From Prochlorococcus sp. AG-424-A03 (GTDB lineage: Bacteria; Cyanobacteriota; Cyanobacteriia; PCC-6307; Cyanobiaceae), in the NCBI GenBank assembly GCA_003213375.1, contig QCNA01000008.1:1-43387 (forward strand): a stretch of DNA of 43,387 bases, given 5' to 3'. Under the pieces are notes generated by a model that searched no databases, was not told the origin of the DNA, and was given only the letters and a program-made list of their open reading frames with translations. This document shows, piece after piece, positions 23,866 through 42,110 of this stretch. Within the stretch, counting starts at the first letter, position 1, and each line of letters opens with the position of its first letter. The position numbers were made by a program, and so were the translations under genes.

Positions 23866-24110
23866 TAAAAAGATGATAATTGTTAATTAAAGTAACACAA
23901 ATATTAACTTATGTAAACCAAAATCTCCAATGTTTTTCTTCTGAGAATTCATTTTTAAGTCATTATGTGACAATTCTGTTTAAAAATTTAACAAGTCGCA
24001 TTTTAAAAATCACTTTTTTAATATCAAATTCGCAATCAATTTTTAAAATAAGCATTTATACTCACGGTAAGTAATTTTACTTAGTAGGATGATTAGAGCA
24101 TTTAGGAAGT

Positions 24111-24190
24111 GCTTAGCTGGTTAAGTCAGAAAATCTGAATTAACTTGGTCGTCATGAGCTTGCCGGTGGGATACTTGCAAGCTCTTTCAA
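24111..24190 (+). ncRNA. Probable small RNA with two hairpins and a terminator
   Basis: Two clean hairpins occur in a 454-base stretch without genes. The first, 24120-24144, pairs GTTAAGTCAG with CTGAATTAAC (9 of 10 pairs) around loop AAAAT. The second, 24156-24184, has a perfect 8-bp stem GAGCTTGC/GCAAGCTC with loop CGGTGGGATACTT and is followed by TTTCAATTTT. The segment is richer in G+C than its surroundings. The 5' end is not determinable; 24085-24115 is likely. I cannot match it to a named Yfr RNA. Confidence 0.6.
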
Positions 24191-30521: not shown

Positions 30522-30656
30522 TCCATTGAAATACATGTTTACCATGATGCAGCTCCTGAACTTGCTCAAGTCCCCGTCCTATGGCTTGAGTCGTACTGCG
30601 GTCTATCAGATGGTAGATCGGACGATTTTGTAGTATTCACTACAATCTATTTATAA
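30522..30656 (+). pseudogene. G+C-rich coding-like frame without a start codon
   Basis: The frame reads 'SIEIHVYHDAAPELAQVPVL' then 'WLESYCGLSDGRSDDFVVFT' to TAA at 30654-30656, which looks strongly protein-like. It has no ATG, GTG or TTG; an ATG at 30515 is one base out of frame (ATG ACT T|TCC ATT GAA) and meets TGA after four codons. The segment is far richer in G+C than its flanks and also folds (GGTCTATC-AGAT-GGTAGATC; CTCAAG/CTTGAG). It is a frameshifted gene, a programmed frameshift or a structured RNA. Confidence 0.45.
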
Positions 30657-36350: not shown

Positions 36351-36458
36351 TCAAACTCCCTTTGATTTTTTTTCAAGTTGATTAATTAATTTATCCAACC
36401 AAAGAGTGTTGTTGATCTTTTTTGTGCCTTTAAAGTATTTCGTTTTGAACGTACTCAT
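36351..36458 (-). CDS. Mini-protein of the NNTxWLDxLIN family, 35 aa
   Basis: 'MSTFKTKYFKGTKKINNTLW' then 'LDKLINQLEKKSKGV'; relative of the 35436 product. GAGGGAT precedes the ATG. Its 5' leader (36459-36530) can form a hairpin AATCAGT/ACTGATT and is G+C-richer than the surroundings. Confidence 0.65.
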   Translation of the reverse strand: MSTFKTKYFKGTKKINNTLWLDKLINQLEKKSKGV

Positions 36459-36575
36459 GTACTTATCCCTCAATCAGTGGGTCCAGCATAGGGGTGCTTA
36501 TTGAAATTTCCTAGAGCAAAAATACTGATTGTGAATATAGTGAAATATTAAAAACTGATTAATTTATAATTTATA

Positions 36576-39894: not shown

Positions 39895-41700
39895 TCAGCC
39901 AATTGTTTTGCCATCATTTCTGCTGATTGCAACAATAGCCGATCTGGGTACTGAGCTCCCACCATCAGGAAAGTGACATTTGTCAGGATTATTTTCACCT
40001 GGATGCTGGACTCCTACAAACATAGTCTTTTTATCACTACTCCATGTGATACCAGTGATTTCACACTCTTTAGGACCTACTAAAAATCTGTCAATTTTAC
40101 CTGTCCTAGGATTTGCGCATAACATTTGGTTATTACCCATTCCTTCAAAGGCTCCTTGATTAGTATATTTACCATCAGTTTGTATCCATAAGTTACCTTT
40201 TGAATCAAATGCGATTCCATCAGGTGAATTAAACATATTATCCTTCGTAATATTTTCAGAGCCCTTCATTAAACCTTCTCCAACAACAGGATTACCAGCC
40301 ATTGCAAATAAATCCCATTTAAACCCGTCAGCGGCATGTTCATTATTGTCAGGAGTCCATCGAACTATTTGACCATATGGATTTTCGACTCTTGGGTTAA
40401 CTGCATTAACAGGTTGATTAGGTTTAACACCTCTATTTTTATTATTAGTTAAGGCACAATACGCCTCCACTTTATTAGGATTTGCAGCCACCCATTCAGG
40501 TCGATCCATAGTTGTTGCACCAACTTGGGTTGCCGCCATCCTTGTGAAAATACTAATATCTGAATCGCTCATTCCCGATTCTTTTAAATTAACCCATCTC
40601 CCGGTTCCATTCTCATTAAAAATCGCCACAAATAAATCACCTTCCGTTAATAGATCATAATTTGATGCAGCTCCTTTTATGTACTTTCCTTTTGAAACGA
40701 ATTTGTATAGATGCTCTCCTCTTTCATCATCTCCCATATAGGCAACAACTTGACCATTCTTGGAGACAACAACTTCACAGTTTTCATGTTTAAATCTACC
40801 CATTGCCGTCTGTTTCCTTGGCATTGATTGTGGCTTAGAGGGATCAATTTCAGTAATATAACCATGCCTATTAATTTCATTCGGATTTTTTACAACATCA
40901 AATCTATCCTGATTCATAACCCAGTTGTAACCCCAATCTTTAGTTTTAACCCCATATCTTTTCAAATCTGCTGACAGATTTGCATTAGGGTCTGATGGAG
41001 ATGAGAAATAACCGTGAAAATTCTCTTCACAAGCTAAATAAGTTCCCCAGGGAGTTCTGCCATTACCACAATTATTAAATGTACCTCTTGCTAATTTGCC
41101 TGTTTGATCCTCATCTGTTTTAAGTAATGGATGACCTGCAGCCGGTCCGTCTATAGCCACTTTCGTATCTGCAGTAATTTTTCTGTTATAAAGAGAATCT
41201 TTAACTATTTCCCACTTCCTACCTTTTTGTGCAACTTCAAAAATCGATACTCCATGTGCAGCCATGCCTTTTCTAACATCATCAGGTGTTTCAGGAAGCC
41301 CACTAGCACGGTTACCATAAATTATTTTTCTATTACAGTATTCATTATTGACTGCAAGTACTGACTTGCCATTAACCTCAAAAAGACTCATTCCATCATT
41401 GTTATCTCCAAATGATAGTTCTTGCGACTCCCCAGTTCCTCTTGTTTGCTGATCAAATTCAGGGGCTCCGCTCCATAATGGATCACCCCAAGCTGCAACC
41501 GTATGCCAACTAAAACCTTTTGGGACAGTAATTGTATCTTTACTATTGGCTGCTAAAGGTGTAAAACTAATGCCATTAAAGTCTGAACCAAATCCAATTG
41601 CTTTGCTTGGAATAGTGGCAGCAGCAAAAGCACCTATTCCTATAGCAAATGAACCCTGAAGAAATTTTCTTCTTGAAACAACTTCGTTAAAATCAGACAC
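39895..41700 (-). CDS. phoX: PhoX-type (DUF839) secreted phosphatase
   Basis: 601 residues. A Tat signal ('SRRKFLQGSFAIGIGAFAAA') exports it folded. 'TRGTGESQELSFGDNNDGMS', 'GTYLACEENFHGYF', 'FKHENCEVVV' with 'VAYMGDDERGEHLYKFV', and 'NMFNSPDGIAFDSKGNLWIQ' are the conserved DUF839/PhoX blocks that hold Ca and Fe ions. PhoX enzymes release phosphate from organic esters under phosphorus stress; some DUF839 members may have other roles, so the symbol is likely rather than certain. The upstream region contains Pho-box-like repeats (41739-41768). Confidence 0.85.
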   Translation of the reverse strand: MSDFNEVVSRRKFLQGSFAIGIGAFAAATIPSKAIGFGSDFNGISFTPLAANSKDTITVPKGFSWHTVAAWGDPLWSGAPEFDQQTRGTGESQELSFGDNNDGMSLFEVNGKSVLAVNNEYCNRKIIYGNRASGLPETPDDVRKGMAAHGVSIFEVAQKGRKWEIVKDSLYNRKITADTKVAIDGPAAGHPLLKTDEDQTGKLARGTFNNCGNGRTPWGTYLACEENFHGYFSSPSDPNANLSADLKRYGVKTKDWGYNWVMNQDRFDVVKNPNEINRHGYITEIDPSKPQSMPRKQTAMGRFKHENCEVVVSKNGQVVAYMGDDERGEHLYKFVSKGKYIKGAASNYDLLTEGDLFVAIFNENGTGRWVNLKESGMSDSDISIFTRMAATQVGATTMDRPEWVAANPNKVEAYCALTNNKNRGVKPNQPVNAVNPRVENPYGQIVRWTPDNNEHAADGFKWDLFAMAGNPVVGEGLMKGSENITKDNMFNSPDGIAFDSKGNLWIQTDGKYTNQGAFEGMGNNQMLCANPRTGKIDRFLVGPKECEITGITWSSDKKTMFVGVQHPGENNPDKCHFPDGGSSVPRSAIVAISRNDGKTIG

Positions 41701-41826: not shown

Positions 41827-41874
41827 TTGACTCATACCCTTTTCAGTTGCTATAAATGTTAGTACACTTGTACC
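41827..41874 (+). promoter_or_regulatory. Promoter with LexA (SOS) box
   Basis: TTGACT (41827-41832), 18 bases, TATAAA (41851-41856) form a sigma70-type promoter. AGTACACTTGTACC at 41861-41874 matches the known cyanobacterial LexA consensus RGTACNNNDGTWCB at every defined position and lies over the expected transcription start. It is the only such full match I noticed in the window. Confidence 0.75.
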
Positions 41875-41882
41875 ATATAACT

Positions 41883-42110
41883 ATGGAGGACTGGCAGGAA
41901 TGGGATTACCTAGAGGACGAAATATTAGTAAGAAAACGACGGAAGATATGTATTACTTGCAATCACTTCAGGTACAGCACGACAAGTTCTTGTGTCACCA
42001 TCCTTACTTGTCCCTTTCATCAAAAGCTTATTCCTCAAGGTGATCATCTAATTAAGGGCTGCAGATACTGGAGAGAGAACAGCAGAATATTCGCTCCAGA
42101 AGCAGCTTGA
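41883..42110 (+). CDS. LexA-box-controlled small Cys-rich protein, 75 aa
   Basis: The ATG at 41883 is chosen because an earlier in-frame ATG (41856) lies inside the promoter and LexA box. Product: acidic start 'MEDWQEWDYLEDEILVRKRR' then 'KICITCNHFRYSTTSSCVTI', 'LTCPFHQKLIPQGDHLIKGC', 'RYWREN'. Cysteines in C-x2-C ... C ... C-P-x-H ... C-x-Y-W suggest one or two zinc-ribbon sites. The gene stands alone and ends in a terminator at 42144. Under SOS control it may act in DNA-damage response; the action is unknown. Confidence 0.8.
   Translation: MEDWQEWDYLEDEILVRKRRKICITCNHFRYSTTSSCVTILTCPFHQKLIPQGDHLIKGCRYWRENSRIFAPEAA

Follow-up and report, generated by a model that had tools for sequence, protein, structure and literature searches.

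The window, by which we mean the whole stretch of 43,387 nt that was analysed (Prochlorococcus sp. AG-424-A03, contig QCNA01000008.1), carries near its 3' end a promoter, a LexA-type box and a 75-codon gene, which were found where the earlier note had placed them. The features read from the sequence are the following:

41827–41832, + strand: -35 element TTGACT, read from the sequence
41851–41857, + strand: -10 element TATAAAT, after an 18-nt spacer from the -35 element, read from the sequence
41861–41874, + strand: LexA-type operator AGTACACTTGTACC, 22 nt before the ATG, exact match to RGTACNNNDGTWCB
41883–42110, + strand: gene for the 75-aa cysteine-rich protein P0001, ATG at 41883, stop codon 42108–42110 included
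41949–41960, + strand: codons of C23-x2-C26 (C-I-T-C), cysteines conserved in alignments A2 and A4
42009–42020, + strand: codons of C43-P-x-H (CPFH), cysteine conserved in A2 and A4
42060–42071, + strand: codons of C60-x2-W63 (C-R-Y-W), C60 and W63 invariant in A2 and A4
42093–42107, + strand: C-terminal tail A-P-E-A-A, a PE-type ending

The operator AGTACACTTGTACC fits RGTACNNNDGTWCB, the Nostoc LexA consensus, on both strands, as claimed beforehand for the cyanobacterial consensus, and it is placed where the start of transcription would be expected. Translation likewise bore out the description of a 75-residue product with CITC, C37, CPFH and CRYW. The gene had also been called isolated, which holds within the window, but of four other genomes inspected two, those taken as MED4 and MIT9301, have it directly 3' of a same-strand ORF of 105–106 aa. 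A PhoX-type gene (39895–41700, − strand) stands in the window between the 106-aa ORF and the cysteine-rich gene, the two being adjacent in the genomes assigned to MED4 and MIT9301.

Within the window the Nostoc consensus gave three strand-matches at two places against 0.05 expected, and three were reached in none of 100 shuffles. The box differs from the narrower pattern AGTACWNWTGTWCT by one mismatch, at the last base, and this pattern was not enriched in the window at two mismatches (11 found, 9.6 expected). The signal from a single window is thus modest, and the case rests on comparison. An automated promoter scan of the window did not list the promoter of the cysteine-rich gene, since it requires the second hexamer to have T as its sixth base, which TATAAA does not; a column profile of 51 distinct upstream regions from Prochlorococcus shows the -10 element to be conserved. 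Elsewhere in the window there is a second box-like site (36450–36463, AGTACATGAGTACG), with the nearest listed ORF starts 196 and 344 nt away, and Rfam matches were obtained for a Yfr20 RNA (24096–24183, + strand) and a glutamine-II riboswitch (30565–30627, − strand).

A scan of genome contigs recovered 190 relatives, the best 80 of which were kept as loci. Among the 48 near orthologue loci (L037–L084), 44 have the strict RGTACNNNDGTWCB at −22 or −24, and in the remaining four (L057, L066, L069, and L082) the box is one base off. Over the 51 distinct upstream regions the box reaches a mean of 1.88 bits per column, compared with 1.48 for positions −57 to −23, 1.31 for the gap between box and ATG, and 0.73 for −80 to −58. 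In 97 of 128 distinct promoters of the family TTGAC occurs 20–34 nt 5' of the box, as against 4 of 127 control windows. One of the near loci (L047), with 100% protein identity, sits on a contig filed as a Flavobacteriaceae MAG, probably a Prochlorococcus contamination.

Relatives of P0001 were detected in 250 of the 300 genomes searched from the taxonomic family of the window, which we take to be the Cyanobiaceae of GTDB, with up to eight matches per genome (179 of 196 when counting high-quality genomes). In a sample of the phylum 45 of 339 genomes were positive, all 45 within the same taxonomic family. The cysteine-rich family therefore appears, as far as searched, special to picocyanobacteria, and the window gene is one copy of a multi-copy family. 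A second, decayed copy, with a stop and a frame change, was found in the window's own genome (C15:25682–25893, L155) after an intact DUF1651 gene.

The wider comparison began with 214 distinct members, taken as best matches rather than drawn at random; 14 that were partial or had less than 120 nt upstream were dropped, and 200 full-length members were retained. A proximal box (two mismatches at most, within about 160 nt upstream) precedes 161 of these, the best proximal site having no mismatch in 86, one in 57, two in 18, and three or more in 39, while the downstream control windows of the 200 members contained no site with fewer than three mismatches. Two of the 39 members lacking a proximal box lie too near a contig end, and in 36 of the 37 assessable ones a site with no more than one mismatch lies between −520 and −160; the distal downstream control gave 0/37 at up to two mismatches. 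It is here that DUF1651 (PF07864) enters, as DUF1651-like ORFs behind LexA-type boxes precede 35 of these 37 members (the exceptions are L175 and L093), whereas the copy in the window is a single gene behind a box of its own. Combining the proximal and distal rules, 197 of the 198 assessable members have a box, and the divergent copy L093 has none, either proximal or at −520 to −160. Because near-identical promoters share ancestry, members were also counted by cluster. Some member has a proximal box in all 17 clusters at 70% identity and in all seven at 60%, and at 85% this is the case for 40 of 46 clusters, with six lacking it. The check proposed in the earlier note, retention of the box by orthologues, thus came out in its favour, and its proposal of SOS control is supported as far as sequence goes.

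The arrangement with DUF1651 is also that of the second copy in the genome assigned to MED4, where the order is a box at 652922, a DUF1651 gene, a 45-aa ORF, and a 76-aa family member (653377–653607), followed by a 52-aa ORF on the other strand and then a ClpS-like ORF. In passages of the published work, yfr7 (652625..652844) is placed between purK and PMM0684 (Axmann et al., PMC1242208), PMM0684 is given as a DUF1651 gene (Fedida and Lindell, PMC5490813), and PMM0684, PMM0685, and PMM0686 are equated with PMED4_07401, 07421, and 07441 (Steglich et al., PMC2518516). As these tags allow one gene between each pair, and the five ORFs follow in order, the family member should be PMM0685. Both PMM0684 and PMM0685 are assigned there to the phage-induced genes of group 2 and lie close together in island 2 of MED4 (PMC2518516, citing a result of Lindell 2007), and DUF1651 genes are reported as phage-induced in three strains (PMC5490813). 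A second boxed DUF1651 gene of the same genome (box at 774764) is near the interpolated place of PMM0819, which according to the same report is phage-induced (PMC5490813). Of the six DUF1651 genes in the MED4-assigned genome, three carry a box no more than about 150 nt from the domain. The counterpart of PMM0686 by order (L150:10613–10792) encodes a short protein resembling ClpS, with an E of 0.00031 that falls just below the cut-off, and PMM0686 is reported in a passage of Steglich et al. as the most phage-induced host mRNA (PMC2518516).

The induction of PMM0684 and of PMM0685, the family member by order, inside an island, the phage induction of DUF1651 genes in three strains, and the multi-copy nature of the family with its decayed copies could also be taken to indicate a phage-related or island-borne accessory (for defence, as a toxin or as a phage helper) that senses infection by its SOS box and is not a repair or checkpoint gene. 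We consider this unlikely, since relatives were absent from phage records and IMG/VR viral contigs at the sensitivity used, the PADLOC defence models gave no match for the window protein and only a weak one, to Csf1, in 2 of 45 members (best E 0.0048), and the spread over the high-quality genomes of the taxonomic family (179/196) is core-like. Control by LexA as part of the SOS response offers a simple and testable reason for the response of PMM0684 and PMM0685 to phage.

Nothing credible was found for the window protein in Pfam, NCBIfam, or PHROGs. The commonest weak Pfam match was DUF7140 (PF23601), seen in 14 of 80 members (best E 0.0061), with 12 bits for the window protein against a cut-off of 27. 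Several other candidates were discarded: EF-1 alpha for the window protein (15 bits, cut-off 502) is a chance match, the DksA/TraR C4 zinc finger (PF01258; 2 of 80 members, best E 0.033) requires two CxxC where the protein has one, and the PDB profile matches to a starch synthase stretch (E 0.013 and 0.022) and to ATG3 (0.31 and 0.45) were taken as chance. A first structure model had a mean pLDDT of 64, and a second one, built with 80 sequences, reached 74.9 (pTM 0.52), with ten-residue blocks at 81–84 over residues 21–60. Foldseek searches of both models against the PDB, plus a viral set, gave nothing at E 0.001 or below. Compared with 278 chains, the second model had four at Z of at least 2, the best three being HiPIPs (Z 2.6–2.9, rmsd 3.7–5.7, 56–65 residues aligned), values under 3 at which a common arrangement can be the reason.

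These fold rows bear on a different view of the product, a cytoplasmic, HiPIP-shaped iron-sulphur protein that would be an SOS-made redox component. The idea came from the cysteine spacing, before the second fold search, as C-x2-C-x16-C-x16-C-x2-W resembles the C-x2-C-x16-C-x13-C-x2-W of the Allochromatium HiPIP; in ten aligned HiPIPs (PF01355) the second gap is 9–16, which includes the 16 of the cysteine-rich protein, but the last gap is 12–14 instead of 16. The profiles do not support it. The profile-profile comparison (hhalign) scored above all 100 column shuffles, but its probability was 10.8% and 4.6% and the register does not pair the cysteines as needed; PF01355 matched 2 of 80 members (best E 0.15), and the first, poorer model had no HiPIP among the matches listed. 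The HiPIP assignment was accordingly not adopted, the HiPIP-like fold of the model being a weak lead, and a redox component of this kind seems quite improbable to us.

The protein itself is under purifying selection, with a pooled pN/pS of 0.087 across 45 distinct orthologous CDS. These came from the window and from 44 of the 48 near loci; L047, L080, L082, and L083 had been excluded in advance because they were misfiled or short. Residues C23, C60, G53, L56, and W63 are invariant in the alignments of 45 and 80 members (A2 and A4), and C26 and C43 are invariant in A2 and at least 90% conserved in A4. The cysteines are retained down to about 30% identity, and C37 is absent from the ETFAT subfamily. 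Hence, of the zinc-ribbon-like protein proposed in the earlier note, the four nearly fixed cysteines (C23, C26, C43, and C60) stand, while no zinc-ribbon model or fold was matched. A PE-type tail closes 148 of the 160 members examined, perhaps as a degron or docking tail, which is a conjecture. That the box is real but serves an RNA product or incidental regulation, with the ORF as a passenger, might be suggested by a short gene devoid of known domains, and is very improbable in view of the pN/pS, the cysteines kept to such low identity, and the lack of any Rfam match at gathering scores at the cysteine-rich gene.

In whole-genome searches, the genomes taken as MED4, AS9601, and MIT9515 have two perfect AGTACNNNTGTACT places each, the first of them 22–23 nt before the cysteine-rich gene. 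The second belongs to recA in the MED4-assigned genome, and in the other two it has the recA site sequence given by Li et al. in the text of their study (PMC3091678). The genome assigned to MIT9301 has a third perfect place, so that these four single-contig Prochlorococcus genomes contain no more than two or three perfect sites each, the box of the cysteine-rich gene being one of them. The MIT9312-assigned genome had only the recA-type perfect site, and a boxed copy of the cysteine-rich gene was not seen in it. For the window's own genome, recA has the perfect site and the cysteine-rich gene a box with one mismatch, and further boxes precede umuD, DUF1651, DUF3104, and small unclassified genes. 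The LexA of this genome, read by eye, keeps an A-G bond, the serine of GDSM and the lysine of LKY, which we take to be the self-cleavage motifs. Its lexA gene is preceded by a GGTACAAATGTATT box, the site listed for MED4 lexA (PMC3091678).

The operator motif is therefore shared, in the same genomes, with the LexA/SOS regulon of marine picocyanobacteria (recA, lexA, umuDC), for which a passage of PMC2921402 gives the motif TAGTACA-N2-TGTACTA before recA, umuC, umuD, and lexA, and Li et al. (2010) report 29 LexA sites in MED4 at p below 0.01 (PMC3091678). The cysteine-rich product differs from this regulon in not being a known repair protein and in belonging to a multi-copy family that was seen, among the genomes searched, in the taxonomic family of the window only. 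What marks a regulon member by sequence is present here, namely an operator at the promoter, its retention in orthologues, and a LexA of the self-cleavable type in the genome, and SOS control of the gene seems well supported. A repressor other than LexA could read the box, as some cyanobacteria without lexA have LexA-like sites (PMC3091678, in the text cited), but the genome of the window has like boxes before recA, umuD, and lexA, and we see hardly any likelihood in this.

Mitomycin C raises recA, lexA, and umuC and, in CC9311, also sync1608–1613, 1615, and 1620–1623, according to passages of Tetu et al. (PMC3744912). The genome assigned to CC9311 has umuD (sync_1606) at 1476754, lexA (sync_0831) at 768012, and one full-length family member (1489750–1489941) with the box AGTACAGGTGTATT, about 13 kb past umuD. 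By interpolation this member would be approximately sync_1620, near the induced sync1620–1623, which fits but is no proof. In the same passages, 15 of 27 genes with a predicted LexA box in CC9311 and 10 of 46 in WH8102 are up with mitomycin C (PMC3744912), so the box predicts induction poorly, and Kolowrat et al. describe a lexA pattern nearly the same with and without UV (PMC2921402). The mitomycin-induced sync1474/SYNW1405 was also considered as a family member and set aside, as the interpolated place has a boxed DUF3104-like gene and no family member.

Overall, we consider it probable that the cysteine-rich gene belongs to a LexA-repressed picocyanobacterial SOS family, that it is released upon damage, and that it encodes a Cys4 metal protein that binds a partner. 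In the normal state LexA, on the box just after the -10 element, would block RNA polymerase. Once DNA is damaged, or the chromosome is degraded by a phage, RecA filaments would form on which LexA cuts itself, the near-consensus promoter would fire, and the 75-aa soluble protein would be translated from a transcript with a leader of roughly 20 nt. C23, C26, C43, and C60 would hold one metal site, most likely zinc and possibly an iron-sulphur cluster. LexA binding at the window box, the metal and the role are steps that we infer. As no obvious catalytic residues were seen, binding to a partner would be the protein's most likely mode of action, whether as adaptor or as inhibitor, a guess also made in the earlier note, while DNA is repaired or the cell cycle is paused; we regard a role as adaptor or inhibitor as evenly balanced, and a cell-cycle brake specifically as doubtful. 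SulA, YneA, and SidA are SOS-made small inhibitors, lineage-specific and LexA-repressed. The cysteine-rich protein is likewise small and lineage-specific, with predicted LexA control, but unlike them it is rich in cysteines and apparently soluble.

In the most abundant photosynthetic cells, SOS genes are known mainly from DNA repair. A widespread unnamed family, nearly all of whose checked members carry the operator, is thus a prime candidate for an SOS effector of the lineage's own. A statement from 2010 holds that the use of SOS repair by any Prochlorococcus strain was not known (in a passage of PMC2955971), and the titles, abstracts, and passages of the literature covered have no description of the cysteine-rich family as SOS-controlled, while the supplementary site tables of Li et al. 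(2010) may list some of its members. As a tentative extension, possible rather than likely, the puzzling host genes that lytic phages induce in Prochlorococcus may in part be the SOS regulon, breakdown of the chromosome freeing the boxes of DUF1651 and cysteine-rich genes (PMM0684–PMM0685) from LexA, and the Cys4 family, possibly built around an iron-sulphur core like that of HiPIPs, may be a dedicated effector in the damaged, infected cell.

Other small genes were observed behind LexA-type boxes. DUF3104 genes are so placed in two Prochlorococcus genomes, the window's own (C2:10917–11162, L152) and the one assigned to MED4 (L308:5349–5624), and a similar-looking boxed gene occupies 1358494–1358793 (L242) of the CC9311-assigned genome, where sync_1474/SYNW1405 is expected by interpolation. 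A LexA-type box is common to a partly hydrophobic, cysteine-bearing ORF of 76–96 aa, a possible SOS membrane mini-protein, and a divergent epimerase-like gene (L309:2236–2523 and, in the own genome, L153:8081–8311). Two further small ORFs also start just 3' of LexA-type boxes, one of 65–68 aa (L152:7636–7842 and L308:8728–8922) and one of 70 aa (L154:9360–9569).
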